NCBI GenBank assembly: GCA_020444165.1
Contig: JAHLLK010000140.1
Location: 1-6,987 of the forward strand
Reading direction: 5' to 3'
Origin: Deltaproteobacteria bacterium
Lineage (GTDB): Bacteria; Desulfobacterota; Desulfarculia; Desulfarculales; Desulfarculaceae
DNA length: 6,987 nucleotides
Under the pieces are notes generated by a model, which saw only the letters and a program-made list of their open reading frames with translations, ran no database searches and was not told the DNA's origin. Shown here piece by piece: positions 48-6,987 of the stretch. Each line of letters begins with the position of its first letter. Position 1 is the first letter of the stretch. Both the position numbers and the translations under genes were made by a program.

Positions 48-1223
48 CTAGAGCATCGCGGTCATGGCCCGGGCCGCCTCGGAGGCGAAGGCCGGATCGT
101 TGATATGCAGATCCACCTCCCGCACCGCGATCTCCGGGCGTAGCAGACGGCGCAGCTGATCGACAAATTCGCGGTTGGATTCCGGGTCGTGCAGGGGGGC
201 GCCGGGGGCGTCGGCGGCCGACCAACCTTGGAGGGGGATCAGCACCTTGACCGCGGAGGTGGCCCGGTTGAGCTTGTCGGCCAATTGCCCGGTCAGCACC
301 TGGGACTCGGCCGGGCTCAGGTGCACCGCCGAGCGGAAATCGTAGAAAAAGACCTTGCGCCCCACGTACTCGGCGGGGATGTTGTCGCGGGTGAACTCCA
401 GCACCGCGCAATCCAAGCCTCCCGGCACCAGCAGGCGGGGGATGCCCCGCCCTGGCAGGGGCTCCAACCGGCCTCGGGCGATGAGCTTGCAGTAGCCGTT
501 TTTGAGGGTGTCAGCCAGCTCGTGGGGGGCCAGGTCCAGGATGGCGTCGAAACGCCCCTCGGCGGCCAGCTCCTCCAGGGCCAGGCCGCCAATGCCATTG
601 GCGTGAAAGGCCACCACCTCGTACCCCTGGGCCTCCAGGAGATCCTTGACCGCCTGCGCCGCCGCATTGATGAAGCCGAACATGCTCAGACCAATACGCG
701 GCTTGTCCCCTGGCGCCTGCCAGTCCCTGGCCGTCATGCCGCAGATGGCCCCCGCCGCCCGGTCCAGTATCAGGCCGGTGAGGGAGTTGACCCCCAAGAG
801 GTCACCCACGCTGTGCATCATGGTGATGTCCTTGGTGCCCACCACCTGAGCCATGTCGTGGGCGGCCACGGTGGAGACCATCACCTTGGGTACTCCCAGG
901 GGCAAAGCCTTCATGGCGCTGGTTACCAGATAGGTGCCGCTGCCCCCGCCGGCGCTGATGACCCCGCTGATATGTCCTTGCGCATACAACTCGGCCAGCA
1001 TGCGTCCGGCTCGCACGATGGTGGCAGCGATGGCCTTGTCGCGGCCCGCGATCTGCAAGGGGCGCAGGTCGATGTCCGGGGTGAAAGTGGGGGCGTGCTG
1101 GGTGCCCACGTTGAGGGTGACAACCCTCCTGCCGCGCCGCTCTATGGCCTCCTTCAGAAAGAGATGCTCCTGCCCCTTGGAATCAAAGGTTCCCATCACT
1201 GCAATAGCTGTCTGGGGGCTCAT
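48..1223 (-). CDS. UPF0261 / Tm-1-like ATP-binding domain protein
   Basis: The 391-aa product has the normal full length for the UPF0261 family, which corresponds to the N-terminal half of the tomato virus-resistance protein Tm-1. Family landmarks seen are: an N-terminal beta strand and turn AIAVMGTFDSKGQE (residues 6-19), the glycine-rich loop AGGGSGT (91-97) followed by TSAMKALPLGVPKVMVST (101-118), the block GTKDITMMHSVGDLLGVN (129-146), a second domain starting at MFGFINAAAQ (181-190) with HANGIGGLALEEL (207-219), VPGGLDCAVLEF (266-277), and the C-terminal DLHINDPAFASEA (371-383). The family is thought to bind ATP, but no reaction is established for the bacterial members. Such genes are often found beside a Tm-1 C-terminal-like (PEP-hydrolase-type TIM barrel) gene. 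None is in the window, but one could lie past the left edge. ATG at 1223 is chosen because the conserved strand starts five residues in. The Shine-Dalgarno is weak. The gene is transcribed divergently from the dehydrogenase operon. Confidence 0.9.
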   Translation of the reverse strand: MSPQTAIAVMGTFDSKGQEHLFLKEAIERRGRRVVTLNVGTQHAPTFTPDIDLRPLQIAGRDKAIAATIVRAGRMLAELYAQGHISGVISAGGGSGTYLVTSAMKALPLGVPKVMVSTVAAHDMAQVVGTKDITMMHSVGDLLGVNSLTGLILDRAAGAICGMTARDWQAPGDKPRIGLSMFGFINAAAQAVKDLLEAQGYEVVAFHANGIGGLALEELAAEGRFDAILDLAPHELADTLKNGYCKLIARGRLEPLPGRGIPRLLVPGGLDCAVLEFTRDNIPAEYVGRKVFFYDFRSAVHLSPAESQVLTGQLADKLNRATSAVKVLIPLQGWSAADAPGAPLHDPESNREFVDQLRRLLRPEIAVREVDLHINDPAFASEAARAMTAML

Positions 1224-2269: not shown

Positions 2270-2297
2270 TTGACCGTTGGTGGCCAATCTGCTTTAT
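2270..2297 (+). promoter_or_regulatory. Possible promoter of the acyl-CoA dehydrogenase-etfBA operon
   Basis: A TTGACC -35-like hexamer (2270-2275) is followed after 16 nt by CTTTAT (2292-2297), a weak -10. The start would fall near 2304, giving a leader of about 67 nt. The -35 match is good and the -10 poor, so this is only the best candidate in the last 150 nt before the gene. Confidence 0.3.
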
Positions 2298-2370
2298 CTT
2301 CAAGCGAGCGTAGGGCCTCTTTAAGCCCAGGCCACCGTTGGTTTTCAGGTTCCATACATAGGTGTGTTGT

Positions 2371-3519
2371 ATGCAAGACCCATTTCTGACTGATAAACAT
2401 CGCGTTTTGCGCCGCAGTGTCCGCGATTTTTGCGAACGGGAACTCAGGCCCATCGCCGCGCAAATCGACCAGGAAGCGCGTTTTCCTTGGGAAGTGGCCG
2501 AGAAAATGGGGCCTTTGGGATATTTCGGGATTCAGGCCCCCCGGGATTTGGGCGGCGCCGGGCTGGATACGCTGAGCTATGCCATCACCATCGAAGAGGT
2601 CTCGCGGGTCAGCGCCGCCATGGGCTTGTGCCTGAGCGTGCACAACAGCGTCGCCCTGTATCCCCTGGTCACTTTTGGCTCCCCCGCGCAGCACCAACGC
2701 TGGGTGCCGCCCTTGGCCAGAGGGGAGAAGGTCGGCGCCTTCTGCCTGACCGAACCCAATGCCGGTTCCGACGCCAGCGGGATCACCGCCACCGCCCTGG
2801 CGGAAGGCGGCGAGTGGGTGGTCAATGCCAACAAGGTGTTTGTCACCAACGGCGGCATCGCCGACATTTGCTTGATCTTTGCCAATACCGCCGCGGGGGG
2901 CGCGCCGAAAGAGATCAGCGTGGTGGTGGCCGAAAGAGGCACTCCGGGCTTCATGGTGGGGGATCTGGAGGACCTTTGCGGCATGCGCGCCAACCCGGTG
3001 GCCTCCATCCGCCTTTGCGACTGCCGCGTCCCCCGGGACAACCTGCTGGGCAAGGCCGGCCAGGGGCTCAGGATCGGCCTGGCGGCGCTGGATGTCGGTC
3101 GCATCGGCATTGCCTCGCAAGCCGTGGGCATCGCCCAGGCGGCCCTGGAGGAGGGGGTGCGTTACGCCAACCAGCGGCAGCAGTTCGGGGTTCCCCTGGG
3201 CCGCCACCAGGCCATCCAGATGATGATCGCGGACATGGCCACCCAAGTGGACGCGGCCCGCCTGCTGGTCTACCGGGCGGCCTTGCTGAAAGATGGCGAC
3301 CAACCGGTCACCAAAGCCTCGGCGCAGGCCAAACTCTTTGCCTCGGAAGCGGCCTGCCAGGTTTGCGATCTGGCCCTGCAGATCCATGGGGGGTACGGCT
3401 ACTCCAAGGCTTATGCCGTGGAACGCTATTATCGTGACGCCCGGGTCACCCGCATTTATGAGGGTACTTCAGAGGTGCACCGCATGGTGATCGCGCGGGA
3501 AGCGCTGCGGGAAAACTGA
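2371..3519 (+). CDS. Acyl-CoA dehydrogenase (short-chain / butyryl-CoA dehydrogenase type)
   Basis: This is a 382-aa FAD enzyme of normal family length that oxidises an acyl-CoA to the enoyl-CoA, or works in reverse with an ETF. The N-terminal helical domain runs to about residue 118. The middle beta domain starts at AFCLTEPNAGSD (123-134), which is signature 1, and the C-terminal helical domain follows. Signature 2 begins at QIHGGYGYSKAYAVERYYRD (337-356), with alanine at 347 where an acidic or Asn residue is usual. The catalytic base is predicted to be Glu364 in IYEGTSEVHR. The SVHNS motif (89-93) and overall look favour the short-chain class, but the substrate cannot be read from sequence. 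ATG at 2371 is preferred because AGGTG precedes it at a suitable distance. A GTG at 2362 would add only Met-Cys-Cys. The etfB ATG follows 25 nt after the stop, so the ETF below is the likely redox partner. Confidence 0.93.
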   Translation: MQDPFLTDKHRVLRRSVRDFCERELRPIAAQIDQEARFPWEVAEKMGPLGYFGIQAPRDLGGAGLDTLSYAITIEEVSRVSAAMGLCLSVHNSVALYPLVTFGSPAQHQRWVPPLARGEKVGAFCLTEPNAGSDASGITATALAEGGEWVVNANKVFVTNGGIADICLIFANTAAGGAPKEISVVVAERGTPGFMVGDLEDLCGMRANPVASIRLCDCRVPRDNLLGKAGQGLRIGLAALDVGRIGIASQAVGIAQAALEEGVRYANQRQQFGVPLGRHQAIQMMIADMATQVDAARLLVYRAALLKDGDQPVTKASAQAKLFASEAACQVCDLALQIHGGYGYSKAYAVERYYRDARVTRIYEGTSEVHRMVIAREALREN

Positions 3520-3544: not shown

Positions 3545-4324
3545 ATGTCGCTTCACATCATTGTCTGCGTCAAATCCGTCCTCAAATCGGCCCCCGTGGG
3601 GGGAGCTGGGCGCACGGCGGACAACAGTGAACTCAATCCCTTTGACCGCTCGGCCCTGGAGGCCGCCCTCCGCCTCAAGGAGACCGTGCAAGGGTCGGTG
3701 ACCGCGCTGTCCATGGGGCCCGCAGTGAGCTCCGAGGCCCTGGCCGAGGCCCTGGCCATGGGGGCCGATGCGGCGGTGCTGGTCAATGACCGGGCCCTGG
3801 TCGGGTCGGACACCTTGGTTACTTCCCGGGTGTTGGCCAAGGCCGTGGCCAAGATCGGCGCTTTTGATTTCATCTTTTTCGGCACCCAAACCTCGGACAG
3901 CGATACCGGACAGGTCGGTCCCCAGACCGCGAGCCTGCTAAAGGTGCCCTTTCTGGGGCGCGTCACCAATCTGGAGCGCCAAGCTGAAGGCTGGGAGGTG
4001 CGAAGAAGCATAGACACCTGGGAGGAGGTCTGGCAGGTGCAGCCCCCGGCCGCGGCGGCCCTGGAGTCCCGCGCGTTCGTGCCCAGATTCGTGGGCCTGG
4101 GGGGAATCTCCCAGGTTTTTGAACAGCGCGCGCTCCAGGAGTGGACCCTGGCGGATCTGGGTTTGACGCCCGGGCAAGTGGGGCTCATGGGCTCGCCCAC
4201 CCGGGTGGCCGCCCTGGAAAAGATAAAACACGACCGCAAATGTAAAATGCTGGCAGGCAACCCGCAGGAGCAGGCGGAGGCCCTGCTGGAGATGCTCACC
4301 AGGGCGGGTGAAATCGTATCATGA
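3545..4324 (+). CDS. etfB: Electron transfer flavoprotein beta subunit
   Basis: The 259-aa EtfB/FixA-family protein forms a heterodimer with EtfA and carries electrons to or from the adjacent dehydrogenase. Seen: N-terminal IIVCVK (5-10), NPFDRSALEAALRLKE (31-46), the nucleotide-loop region SMGPAVSSEALAEALAMGAD (56-75), DRALVGSDTLVTS (82-94), FGTQTSDSDTGQVGP (112-126) and GSPTRVAAL near the C terminus. The 82-94 segment aligns by eye with the SDRAFGGADTLATS loop of bifurcating, CarD-like and FixA-like ETFs. Mitochondrial-type EtfB instead has a proline-rich AEAERLGP-type segment that holds AMP. A second FAD in the beta subunit is therefore plausible. A strong Shine-Dalgarno (GGGAGG, 3535-3540) supports the ATG. 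The stop TGA overlaps the etfA ATG (ATGA, 4321-4324), which implies translational coupling. Confidence 0.93.
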   Translation: MSLHIIVCVKSVLKSAPVGGAGRTADNSELNPFDRSALEAALRLKETVQGSVTALSMGPAVSSEALAEALAMGADAAVLVNDRALVGSDTLVTSRVLAKAVAKIGAFDFIFFGTQTSDSDTGQVGPQTASLLKVPFLGRVTNLERQAEGWEVRRSIDTWEEVWQVQPPAAAALESRAFVPRFVGLGGISQVFEQRALQEWTLADLGLTPGQVGLMGSPTRVAALEKIKHDRKCKMLAGNPQEQAEALLEMLTRAGEIVS

Positions 4325-5973
4325 AAGCAAAAGCCATCTGGATATGCGGTGATTTGCGCAGCCGGCGACTTTGGCGGAACAGCCTCAAGGTTTTGGCCAA
4401 GGCGCAGCCCCTGGCCCAGGAGACCAAGGCTCCCGTGGCCATGGTTCTCCTGGGCGCCCGAGAGCCAGGTGGGTTGCCAGACCAGGATATGGGGCTGGCC
4501 GCCGGCGTCCCCCTGGCGGAAGCGGCCCAAGAGGCGGCGGAATGCGGGGTCTCGGAAGTTCTCTGCCTGGCCCATCCGCGGCTCGCGGTCCCCCGCACCG
4601 ACATCTACGCCCGGGTTTTGGCTGATTTCGTCCGCGCCCGCCATCCCTGGGTGGTGCTGTTCAGCATGAACGATTTTGGCCGCGAGATGGCTGCCTTGGG
4701 AGCCCAGCCCTGCCAGGCCGGGGTCATCGCGGACTGCGAGTCGCTGCTTTTGCGCGAGGGACAAGTGGCCGGACGCTGCCCTGCCTGGGGAGGGCAGATC
4801 CTGGCCGATATCACCCTGGCCCCGGGCTGGCGTCTGGCCTTTGTCACGGTCCGGCCGCATGGCGGTCCCCCCCCGGCGCCCAGCGGAGCCCAAACCCCGG
4901 CGCCCAGCGGAGCCCAAACCCCGGCGCCCATAACCTGGCTTCAGCCTGAGCAGGTGGAATCTCCCCTCGGGGTGCACCTTAAGCGCCGCACCAGGGAGGC
5001 CCTGCAAACCCGGCGTTTGGAGGAGGCGGAAACCGTGGTGGTGGGCGGCGCCGGCCTGGGCGACATTCGGGGCTTTGGACAGGTGCGGGAGTTGGCCGCG
5101 GCCCTGGGGGCCGAGGTGGGCGCCACCCGTCCGCCGGTCTTGCACCACTGGGTCGAGGAAGAGCGGCTCATCGGCCAGACCGGTAAGACCGTGCGGCCCA
5201 AGCTGTTGATCACCGTGGGCACTTCGGGAGCGATTCAATACACGGCCGGCATCATGGAGGCCGCCACCATCGTGGCCATCAACCGCGATGCCGCCGCGCC
5301 CATCTTTGGTTTGGCGGATATCGGCATTGTGGCCGAGGCCGGCACCATTTTGCCGGTGCTGACCCAGAAGGCCAATCAGCTGACCATGCGGCGCTTGGCG
5401 GATTCGTCCGCCAGCCTCAGCGGGGAGGAGGGTGGCCTGCCCAGCGGGTTCGGGGCCCTGGTGCGTCAACTGCGCGAGGCCCGCAATTGGACCCAGGGGG
5501 AGTTTGCGGAAAAAACCGGCCAGACCCCCGATTTCGTCGCCCAGGTCGAGGATGAGCGCCTGTCCCCGCCGGTGAGCTTCATCCTGCGCATGGCCCAGGC
5601 CATGGAGGTGGACCCGGGGACCTTCCTCAACAAGGAGGAGCAGGCCGCCATCCGGGACCGCCGGGCCCAGGCCTTCCGCCAGCGCACCCAAAACTACAGC
5701 TACATCACCCTGACACCCAATGCCGAAAACGATCACCTGCGGGCCTTCATGATCACCATCGAGCCGCACCTGGCCCACAAACCCGTGGCCTACAAGCATG
5801 AGGGCGAAGAATTCAATTTTGTCATGGAGGGGGAGCTGGAATTGACCCTGGGTTCGCGGGTGCATCACCTCAAGGCCGGGGAGTCCCTCCATTTCAATTC
5901 GGACATACCCCACAAGCTGAAGAGCCTGAGCAATGAACCCACCAAATGCCTGGTGGTGCTCTATACTATTTAA
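4321..5973 (+). CDS. etfA: EtfA fused to an XRE helix-turn-helix and cupin regulator
   Basis: This 550-aa protein is much longer than ordinary EtfA (about 310-340 aa). Domain I spans about 1-180. A proline-rich tandem repeat PAPSGAQT follows TVRP (185-203). The FAD domain covers about 205-355 with GATR (Arg270), GQTGKTV (285-291), VGTSGAIQYTAG (299-310) and IVAINRDAAAPIFGLADIGIV (317-337). Tyr307 replaces the His common at that FAD contact. Residues 377-436 form an XRE-type HTH (LRxxRxWTQGEFAEKTGQ, then FVAQVEDERLSPPVSFILRMAQAMEVD). Residues 458-550 form a cupin with possible metal ligands His493, Glu497 and His531. The C-terminal 175 or so residues match the size of free XRE-cupin regulators. 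The frame is uninterrupted. Its start overlaps etfB (ATGA) and it has only a weak Shine-Dalgarno of its own. Inferred role: electron carriage for the neighbouring dehydrogenase plus DNA binding and ligand or metal sensing, perhaps autoregulation. Confidence 0.92.
   Translation: MKAKAIWICGDLRSRRLWRNSLKVLAKAQPLAQETKAPVAMVLLGAREPGGLPDQDMGLAAGVPLAEAAQEAAECGVSEVLCLAHPRLAVPRTDIYARVLADFVRARHPWVVLFSMNDFGREMAALGAQPCQAGVIADCESLLLREGQVAGRCPAWGGQILADITLAPGWRLAFVTVRPHGGPPPAPSGAQTPAPSGAQTPAPITWLQPEQVESPLGVHLKRRTREALQTRRLEEAETVVVGGAGLGDIRGFGQVRELAAALGAEVGATRPPVLHHWVEEERLIGQTGKTVRPKLLITVGTSGAIQYTAGIMEAATIVAINRDAAAPIFGLADIGIVAEAGTILPVLTQKANQLTMRRLADSSASLSGEEGGLPSGFGALVRQLREARNWTQGEFAEKTGQTPDFVAQVEDERLSPPVSFILRMAQAMEVDPGTFLNKEEQAAIRDRRAQAFRQRTQNYSYITLTPNAENDHLRAFMITIEPHLAHKPVAYKHEGEEFNFVMEGELELTLGSRVHHLKAGESLHFNSDIPHKLKSLSNEPTKCLVVLYTI
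4871..4930 (+). repeat. 24-bp in-frame tandem repeat, 2.5 copies, inside etfA
   Basis: Two identical 24-bp units (4871-4894 and 4895-4918) and a half unit (4919-4930) encode PAPSGAQT-PAPSGAQT-PAP. The repeat sits at the loop between EtfA domain I and the FAD domain, directly after the TVRP motif. The units are exact, so the expansion is recent or kept homogeneous, and copy number may vary between strains. Confidence 0.9.
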
Positions 5974-6221: not shown

Positions 6222-6467
6222 CTAGTGGCAGTGGAGTCCGCCCTCGCCAAACTCACGGTCATTGGCCCGGGCCAAGCGGTCCAGGAAGCGTCCCCAGCGG
6301 CCCTTGGGCTTGGCGCAGCAGGGCATGGTCAGGAACCTGTCCCGGCAGCCCGCGGCGCAGAAGAAATTGAGCTTGCCGTCCCGCTCGGCCACCAGATCGG
6401 TCTTTTGGGTGTCCACCGGCATGTGGCAGATGGGGCAGGGCTCGGTGCGGTTGATGACCTGTTCCAT
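6222..6467 (-). CDS. Small YHS/TRASH-type cysteine-rich protein, probable metal binding
   Basis: An 81-aa cytoplasmic-looking protein with no signal peptide or membrane segment. Its core CPICHMPVDTQ (11-21) and GKLNFFCAAGCRDRFLTMP (31-49) follow the YHS/TRASH pattern: Cys11-x2-Cys14, then 22 residues to Cys37-x3-Cys41. Family members bind soft metals such as copper and are often found with P-type metal ATPases or metal regulators. Extra potential ligands are the Cys50-Cys51 pair and the C-terminal His79-Cys80-His81. The start at 6467 is fixed by an ideal AGGAGG (6474-6479) with 6-nt spacing. The frame stays open upstream, but that part is not protein-like and overlaps the preceding gene. It follows the secreted Gly-rich gene by 70 nt on the same strand, so the two probably share a transcript. 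The metal is not determined. Confidence 0.8.
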   Translation of the reverse strand: MEQVINRTEPCPICHMPVDTQKTDLVAERDGKLNFFCAAGCRDRFLTMPCCAKPKGRWGRFLDRLARANDREFGEGGLHCH

Positions 6468-6537
6468 GAGCTTCCTCCTGGTCTGGGAGGGGAGGGAAAG
6501 GGGGCCCGGCCCGGATGTCCGGACCCCCCAGGGAGTG

Positions 6538-6912
6538 CTAGCGGGTGAAGTTACCGGACGAATTGCCGGGGTTGACCGGAGCGCGCCGGAAGTTGGGGCC
6601 CGGGCCAAAACCGCGGCCGTAATGCGGGCCCTGGTTCCAGTTCGAAGACTGCCAGCCGGGGCAATTGGCCGGTCCGTAGCCGTTGCCCCGAGCATTGACA
6701 TTACCCGGGCCATAGCCGGGGGCCGCGCAGTTGGCGCCGTTGGCGTAACCGTAGCCCATGTGGTAGCCGGGCTGCATCATGTGGCCGCCCCAACCGCCGC
6801 CCCAACCACTGCCATAGCCGCCGCCCATCATGCCGTAGCCCCCTGCCATGGCGCCCACGGCCAGTCCGAGGGTCAGCATGCCAGCCAGGACGAAAATCAT
6901 TGCGTGTCTCAT
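6538..6912 (-). CDS. Secreted Gly/Tyr/Met/His-rich small protein
   Basis: This 124-aa protein has a clear signal peptide: MRH, a hydrophobic core AMIFVLAGMLTLGLAVG, then AMA at 21-23 before GGYG. The mature part is low complexity, rich in Gly, Tyr, Asn, Met, Trp and His (MMGGGYGSGW, GGHMMQPGYHMGYGY), with Cys in two NCxxPGY/NCPGW-like spots and an Arg/Pro/Asn-rich tail. I recognise no domain. Similar Met/His/Gly-rich periplasmic proteins occur beside heavy-metal resistance genes, and the YHS gene downstream fits that, but binding is inferred. ATG at 6912 is chosen because AAGAGG (6919-6924) precedes it with 6-nt spacing and because it opens a good signal peptide. A TTG at 6948 would spoil it. 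Confidence 0.78.
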   Translation of the reverse strand: MRHAMIFVLAGMLTLGLAVGAMAGGYGMMGGGYGSGWGGGWGGHMMQPGYHMGYGYANGANCAAPGYGPGNVNARGNGYGPANCPGWQSSNWNQGPHYGRGFGPGPNFRRAPVNPGNSSGNFTR

Positions 6913-6987
6913 TTGGGGCCTCTTCTTTAGTATGAGACTGCTGCACAAAGACGCGCAGGTTCTTCAGATCGCTTTGTTGGTCTTGGG
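6913..6987. other. Right edge, upstream of the secreted protein gene
   Basis: These 75 nt contain the Shine-Dalgarno of the Gly-rich gene. On the minus strand one frame runs open from the window edge to a TAA at about 6928-6930, so the tail of another gene is possible but cannot be judged from so little. No convincing promoter was found. Confidence 0.3.

Follow-up and report, generated by a model that had tools for sequence, protein, structure and literature searches.

The subject of this analysis is a stretch of 6,987 nucleotides (the window) at the start of contig JAHLLK010000140.1, from a deltaproteobacterium of the family Desulfarculaceae, and in particular the last gene of a three-gene operon within it. 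This gene encodes the alpha subunit of an electron transfer flavoprotein (ETF), EtfA, joined to an XRE-type helix-turn-helix (HTH) and a cupin, and the gene order is acd-etfB-etfA::XRE-cupin, where acd encodes an acyl-CoA dehydrogenase (Table 1). The acd frame ends 25 bases ahead of etfB, and the TGA stop codon of etfB overlaps the ATG start codon of the fusion gene (ATGA). Alignment with relatives makes the ATG at 2371 the likelier start codon of acd, and the best NCBIfam match of its product is the acryloyl-CoA reductase AcrC (428.6 bits, under that family's cut-off of 640).

Table 1. The operon of the window, its candidate promoter, and the domains of the fusion protein
Feature	Position in window	Strand	Basis
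Candidate promoter TTGACC-N17-TTTATC	2270..2298	+	Two-sequence alignment with the closest locus, L001
acd, acyl-CoA dehydrogenase gene, first in operon	2362..3519	+	Pfam Acyl-CoA_dh_N/M/1
etfB, electron transfer flavoprotein beta subunit	3545..4324	+	Pfam ETF, E 5.9e-38
etfA::XRE-cupin fusion	4321..5973	+	One unbroken frame, 550 amino acids
ETF N-terminal domain (residues 19-193)	4375..4899	+	Pfam PF01012, E 9.7e-18
FAD-binding ETF_alpha domain (residues 233-311)	5017..5253	+	Pfam, E 2e-27
XRE-type helix-turn-helix (residues 377-433)	5449..5619	+	Pfam HTH_31, HTH_3; helices in model
Cupin barrel (residues 477-546), invariant H493, E497, H531	5749..5958	+	Pfam Cupin_2

The fusion protein contains both the ETF and the ETF_alpha domains, as do ETF alpha subunits, followed by an XRE HTH and Cupin_2 in the order seen in XRE-cupin regulators. 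In the second half, Pfam places HTH_31 at residues 377-432 (E 1.4e-10), HTH_3 at 381-433 (E 5.6e-7), and Cupin_2 at 477-546 (E 4.7e-16), and all five domain matches of the protein exceed the curated cut-offs. A preliminary description, made from the DNA alone, had proposed a complete EtfA joined to a complete XRE-cupin module in one uninterrupted frame, with a flavin adenine dinucleotide (FAD) region at residues 270-337, an HTH at 377-436, and a cupin at 458-550; the single 550-residue frame and the Pfam limits agree with this, each of the domains it suggested looking for (ETF, ETF_alpha, HTH_3, Cupin_2) was matched, and homologues keep the joint. The stretches T269-P272, G285-G288, and T301-A304, which we take to be FAD contacts, are invariant in all 34 aligned fusion proteins. 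A structure model built from 118 sequences, which supersedes a poor one built from 34 (mean predicted local distance difference test score, pLDDT, 70.6), has a mean pLDDT of 87.6 and a predicted TM-score of 0.63, with lower confidence around residues 359-375 and 438-458, and the helices of its HTH lie at 377-387, 392-399, 403-410, and 418-428. In the window, the linker that joins the two ETF domains is extended by a perfect 24-base tandem repeat (2.5 copies, positions 4871-4930), which the 33 other aligned fusion proteins lack.

Homologues were sought with residues 350-550 as the query among proteins of 0.55-1.75 times 550 amino acids. The XRE-cupin part matched 767 proteins of similar length; among the 120 matches listed, ETF_alpha and Cupin_2 are present in all 120, a Pfam HTH in 118, and the ETF domain in 114, the six lacking the latter being shorter (305-441 amino acids). 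Those few of the matches that are named come from Desulfarculaceae, Desulfobacteraceae, Desulfobacterales, Thermodesulfobacteriota, or Pseudomonadota, and 34 aligned proteins continue across the junction, interrupted by no more than short gaps in the linker. A scan of genome contigs found 56 fusion loci, mostly labelled Desulfo- or Deltaproteobacteria, with a few labelled Nitrospirota, Myxococcota, Proteobacteria, or Syntrophaceae; four of these hold only a piece of the gene (L050, L051, L053, and L054), and L030 and L036 stop near residue 520. The same domain order, which the preliminary description had proposed to look for in other genomes, is also present in the complete chromosomes of Desulfosarcina widdelii and D. 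alkanivorans (L021 and L046). Among the 198 genomes of a phylum sample taken around D. widdelii, the module stands in a frame of 529-578 amino acids in 12; its EtfA part is confirmed in eight of them (G001, G004, G007, G044, G047, G079, G082, and G093) and assumed from length in four. Some of the 767 proteins are named 'electron transfer flavoprotein alpha subunit/transcriptional regulator with XRE-family HTH domain' by JGI, and the NCBI name is 'FAD-binding protein'. The fusion is real, and many sulfate reducers and related anaerobes conserve it.

One might nevertheless ask whether sequencing or assembly has joined two genes through a lost stop codon or frameshift, for which the preliminary description had singled out the region near 5390-5440. 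This we reject as having practically no chance of being right: homologues run through the junction, and the same architecture recurs in all 120 matches listed of the 767 and in the two complete chromosomes, even if some metagenome contigs (none of them for the window) seem to hold the two halves as separate frames. Among such contigs, P0137 and P0264, each listed with a 7258-base contig, look like separate-frame halves of a fusion, as do the further pairs P0190/P0239, P0169/P0309, and P0159/P0267, in which a frameshift and a true split were not distinguished.

The operon is conserved along with the fusion. Of 57 sequences (the 56 loci and the window), 49 extend 2.2 kb or more upstream; the fusion has etfB next to it in 48 of these and acd in 46, the exceptions being L016, L025, and L047 for acd and L047 for etfB; L053, one of the 49, covers only the first 245 residues of the fusion. 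No other recurrent neighbour stood out across clades by a crude calling of open reading frames (ORFs) in the neighbourhoods.

The best solved relative of EtfB is that of the Clostridium difficile butyryl-CoA dehydrogenase complex, and the protein scores 131.6-98.8 bits with five chains that we take to be electron-bifurcating and 89.8-56.3 bits with five others. The structures 5ol2 (Clostridium difficile Bcd-EtfAB), 7koe (Thermotoga EtfABCX), and 4kpu (Acidaminococcus) are likewise presumed to be bifurcating. Such ETFs resemble the fusion in their EtfA domains, in the adjoining EtfB and acyl-CoA dehydrogenase, and in fold, and they are its best solved sequence relatives, but they lack the XRE-cupin C-terminus. 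A further difference is Tyr307 of the fusion, which takes the place of the His of 7koe, 5ol2, and 6fah and of the Phe of 7qh2. At this position, the His of SGAIQH, 58 fused proteins have Tyr (56) or Phe (2), and 45 unfused ones have Tyr (22), His (22), or Phe (1); since Tyr occurs in about half of the unfused rows, it is not tied to the fusion.

Where did the module come from? In a tree of 161 XRE-cupin modules, the 110 fused rows (picked below 88% identity out of 179, of which 169 are distinct) form one clade with support 100/100, nested in a 99/98 clade together with 34 free relatives. The tree of the EtfA half, built after removal of near-duplicates (14 fused, 9 unfused) and of 4 unfused rows whose frames were odd, is less simple: unconstrained, its 44 fused rows fall into groups of 34, 9, and 1, and a single clade is not rejected (approximately unbiased test, p-AU 0.615). 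The sequences of the EtfA half would fit one clade, without demonstrating a single origin. The sister group of unfused EtfA proteins has EtfB and dehydrogenase matches upstream in the same acd-etfB-etfA order, with no XRE-cupin within about 1.5 kb, in all 14 loci (L122-L134 and L136). Because the sister EtfA stands without the module in the same gene order, the module was most likely added to a pre-existing acd-etfB-etfA operon.

The nearest relatives of the module are free XRE-cupins, many of them encoded beside acyl-CoA dehydrogenase genes. A free protein 37-43% identical to the fused module is present in five of six genomes searched (D. widdelii, D. alkanivorans, Desulfatitalea alkaliphila, and metagenome-assembled genomes of a Desulfarculaceae and a Syntrophaceae member), and in each of the five its gene immediately precedes another acyl-CoA dehydrogenase gene on the same strand; in three it also comes after thiolase and 3-hydroxyacyl-CoA dehydrogenase genes, the names of the neighbours being putative and based partly on similarity. 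Among the 30 best free loci of the phylum sample, the next gene is an acyl-CoA dehydrogenase in 17 (the D. widdelii locus being counted both here and among the five genomes), a transketolase-like gene in 5, and another gene in 8. Free proteins, taken as matches with E below about 1e-42 in a frame of less than 300 amino acids, occur in 43 of the 198 genomes. They are present in 10 of the 12 genomes that have the fusion, in 13 of the 14 that have the sister EtfA (taken at E below about 1e-95), and in 20 of the remaining 172. For fused-or-sister EtfA against neither (23/26 versus 20/172), Fisher's test gives p 2.6e-15, a value that ignores kinship and rests on cuts chosen post hoc. These free proteins, annotated merely as XRE regulators, share the Y-x-H-(E)-G-E-E-F motif and the residue triad of the fused cupin and differ in being separate genes and in having Lys or Arg in the recognition region of all 21 that are linked to dehydrogenases.

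The triad, H493, E497, and H531, is the most constant trait of the cupin. H493 and E497 are found in 179 of 179 fused rows and H531 in 176 of the 176 in which that residue is present, all three occur in 34 of 34 free relatives, and Tyr491 occupies the place of the initial His of the usual HxH in every fused row and free relative. An invariant triad in fused and free proteins alike suggests, as far as sequences can tell, that they share a metal or polar ligand site. Conservation was compared in three sets: 34 rows gathered by the XRE-cupin part, 48 ORFs from genome loci, and 20 rows gathered by the EtfA part. The mean entropy of the cupin versus that of the FAD domain is 0.51 versus 0.58, 0.85 versus 0.89, and 0.90 versus 0.91 bits in these sets, that of the HTH is 0.73, 1.29, and 1.08 bits (less conserved than the cupin), and that of the ETF N-terminal domain is 1.19, 1.92, and 1.59 bits. 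The idea that the cupin is the single most conserved part was rejected, as it is only level with the FAD domain in the 48- and 20-row sets.

The side of the HTH that would face DNA differs between fused and free proteins. The recognition region (residues 401-414) lacks both Lys and Arg in 118 of the 179 fused rows, in none of the 34 rows of the free subfamily, and in 6 of 17 distant XRE-cupins, these controls being taken from 19 loci after two with frames of more than 330 amino acids were excluded. Twelve positions were taken as DNA-facing, after the presumed contacts of 434 repressor. The summed charge at these positions averages -1.37 in the fused proteins and is never above 0 in 179 rows, compared with +0.14 in 21 dehydrogenase-linked, 0 in 5 transketolase-linked, and +1.38 in 8 other free relatives, and +0.47 (range -3 to +5) in the distant controls. 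After clustering at 65% identity, the difference holds at p 0.0015 against the dehydrogenase-linked free proteins (19 versus 11 clusters) and at p 0.028 against the distant controls. At the positions that presumably align to the base contacts of 434 repressor, the fused rows have P in 176 of 179, D or E in 178, and Q in 142. The P-D pair is no argument against DNA binding, because it is common to the transketolase-linked free proteins (5/5), whose promoters show an inverted repeat.

One way of assessing whether such a protein acts on its own operon is to look for a shared operator. Words of 4-6 bases, palindromic or direct and matched exactly, were counted in 46 upstream regions of 300 bases and compared with 30 shuffles. 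No operator common to several clades was found in the 46 regions, and words above the shuffle maximum occur only among close relatives; a CCGCCG-N5 palindrome, for instance, is restricted to L005, L009, and L053. The longest inverted repeat per region has arms of 6.5 bases on average, versus 6.0 in shuffles, a slight surplus made up of dissimilar sequences, some of them perhaps terminators. As a positive control, ACAAA-N10-TTTGT was found by alignment inside the promoter of four of the five transketolase-linked free loci (L115, L118-L121), and in seven other free loci no such word is common to more than two, both counts being made without shuffles. Finding the former site indicates that the search method works but is insensitive. 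The core promoters themselves look clade-specific in their sequences. The candidate of the window is not listed by a consensus promoter scan, the regions of the Desulfatitalea type have TTTACA in nine of ten with TAATGT 17 bases further on in six of ten, and a BLAST comparison, made without a positive control, of the upstream DNA of the window with the L001 genome gave no match.

The regions of the Desulfosarcina type stand apart. TTCAA-N-TTGAA is present upstream of acd in four of the nine that were aligned (L021, L031, L035, and L046). In the D. alkanivorans genome, a 17-base-pair (17-bp) form of it occurs, allowing at most one mismatch, in a single place, which is upstream of the operon. 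In L035, a Nudix-like frame lies on the opposite strand beyond the element.

The fusion is a conserved, uncharacterised combination of known parts, and no paper on an ETF-XRE-cupin protein was found in the open-licence PMC literature, which agrees with the preliminary description in knowing of no characterised protein of this design. The available parts of a proteogenomic study of Desulfococcus multivorans report seven ETFs and mention no such fusion (PMC5109826), and those of two further papers hold nothing on the design (PMC5373536 and PMC12565409). XRE-cupin regulators (PsdR, PauR, ErfA; 1y9q, 6b8w) have an HTH followed by Cupin_2 and detectable homology to the module; the fusion, unlike these, is part of an enzyme subunit, has a less basic DNA face, and has no family-wide operator that could be found. 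As the preliminary description had supposed of free XRE-cupins, the Pseudomonas proteins are local repressors, with palindromic motifs that they bind as dimers, according to the accessible sections of PMC7901475. The enzyme HppE (hydroxypropylphosphonic acid epoxidase) also combines an XRE-type domain with a cupin and matches the module across both domains (E 3.1e-8), but it is not fused to an ETF, and the module is closer to a regulator, its best sequence match being 1y9q (E 2.7e-18). In BzdR, a protein of anaerobic benzoate degradation, a DNA-binding domain is linked to one that senses benzoyl-CoA, as far as the text available of PMC3602430 goes. Its sensor is shikimate-kinase-like, with neither ETF nor cupin, unlike the fusion; its DNA-binding domain is presumably of the XRE type. 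Trifunctional PutA, a flavoenzyme that represses its own regulon through its own DNA-binding domain (PMC5293562, in the part available), links flavin-dependent catabolism to DNA binding. Its domain is a ribbon-helix-helix (RHH) at the N-terminus, without a cupin, and that of the fusion is an XRE domain at the C-terminus; the two are not relatives, and no RHH, proline dehydrogenase, or P5C dehydrogenase domain is among the Pfam matches of the window proteins. The resemblance to PutA is one of design only, and would be a true parallel only if the fusion is an autorepressor.

We favour, with a probability of roughly 0.45, a sensing module that acts on the ETF and dehydrogenase. The operon would encode a working acyl-CoA dehydrogenase/ETF unit in which EtfA bears a permanent C-terminal sensing module. 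The cupin would bind a pathway ligand, which may be an acyl-CoA, a related metabolite, or a metal bound by H493, E497, and H531, and the HTH-cupin, which probably dimerises, may act on the protein complex itself, where it would gate or position either the mobile FAD domain in EtfA or its docking onto the dehydrogenase. Any transcriptional control through the HTH would be secondary or lost. In favour of this reading we count the fixed operon, the single clade of the fused modules among free relatives that often adjoin dehydrogenase genes, the co-occurrence of these free proteins with fused or sister EtfA, a cupin with an invariant triad and conserved to the level of the FAD domain, the DNA face that is less positive than in free relatives, the lack of a cross-clade operator, and the match to HppE, an enzyme built of the same two domains. 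The main competitor, a serious one which we rate below this and hold to be plausible rather than probable, is a trigger enzyme like PutA: the fusion would repress its own acd-etfB-etfA' through the HTH, and a cupin ligand or the flavin state would release it. Both PutA itself, as a flavoenzyme carrying its own repressor domain (PMC5293562, in part), and the local repressors of Pseudomonas with their palindromic motifs (PMC7901475, in part) are precedents. The face charge that never rises above 0 in 179 fused rows argues against such repression, as does the lack of any palindromic word reaching beyond close relatives in the 46 regions despite a conserved recognition helix, and an abundant electron carrier would be an uneconomical repressor. 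TTCAA-N-TTGAA keeps autorepression alive in one clade, with the 17-bp form unique to this operon in D. alkanivorans, although the D. widdelii operon has no 17-bp palindrome within one mismatch. The same evidence bears on two suggestions of the preliminary description, that the protein reports flavin redox state or a bound metabolite to DNA, and that it tethers the ETF-dehydrogenase complex to its own promoter: both are possible, and they gain no support, in view of the charge at the 12 positions and of the missing cross-clade operator. The free relatives beside acyl-CoA dehydrogenase genes and the precedent of PutA do not figure in that description.

Several results weigh against the favoured sensing module. 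By alignment and in the model, the fused proteins retain the HTH fold, which also suits an autorepressor, and the four Desulfosarcina-type loci with TTCAA-N-TTGAA upstream of acd exceed a shuffle maximum of three. A negative face is likewise found in 41% of the 17 distant controls, the net charge of the whole domain does not differ between fused and dehydrogenase-linked free proteins after clustering (p 0.4), and, the fused set being one clade, the charge shift counts as one evolutionary event on one branch. Only 17 of the 30 free loci adjoin a dehydrogenase, the remaining 13 being split between transketolase-like (5) and other genes (8), and it was by their similarity in the XRE-cupin part that the rows of the 34-row conservation set were selected. 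Dimers are common among cupin and XRE domains, and a scaffold that dimerises EtfAB units or recruits the dehydrogenase, with no sensing, would suit the low-confidence, probably flexible linkers that flank the HTH in the model. The XRE-cupins of Pseudomonas do bind palindromes as dimers (PMC7901475, in part). A mere scaffold is unlikely, as it would need neither an invariant triad nor a barrel conserved like the FAD-binding domain. Still less likely is a metalloenzyme of the HppE type, working on a pathway intermediate with electrons supplied by the ETF: the best match of the module is the regulator 1y9q, HppE requires an oxidant, which makes such chemistry improbable in strict anaerobes, and comparable triads are presumably found in non-catalytic cupins too.

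If the favoured sensing module is extended to the free proteins, the XRE-cupin, free or fused, may be an accessory subunit of anaerobic acyl-CoA dehydrogenase/ETF complexes, that is, a former transcription factor now off DNA that senses acyl-CoA, CoA, or a metal and gates the electron flow of EtfA; we offer this tentatively. The fusion would then be the Rosetta-stone form of the free partner encoded beside acyl-CoA dehydrogenases, and the free relatives pose a concrete question about proteins known so far by their annotation as regulators. ETFs set electron transfer in the fatty-acid oxidation of anaerobes, a step near the thermodynamic limit, and a sensor built into EtfA would be a direct control point of that step in many sulfate reducers. 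With autorepression, the fusion would instead be, like PutA, a redox enzyme that also acts as the repressor of its operon.

The remainder of the window holds a few features outside the operon. A UPF0261 protein with both Pfam domains (48-1223, minus strand) is divergent from it and was unmatched in those neighbourhoods of the relatives that were inspected. Downstream of the fusion, a short Gly-rich frame (6538-6948, minus strand) has a signal-peptide-like start, judged by eye, and no Pfam or NCBIfam match; the frame at 6222-6713 (minus strand) matches at its C-terminus the NCBIfam LDCC putative metal-binding motif (33.7 bits, cut-off 30) and, slightly under the Pfam cut-off, YHS. Rfam at gathering scores gave no match anywhere in the window. 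Two long inverted repeats at 1956-2092 (19-base arms 95% and 14-base arms 93% complementary) sit in about 1.1 kb without a recognised gene. Four adjacent strong hairpins lie at 1643-1762, between the UPF0261 gene and the operon, and the RNA of 1640-1780 folds at -82.3 kcal/mol (z -9.1 versus shuffles).

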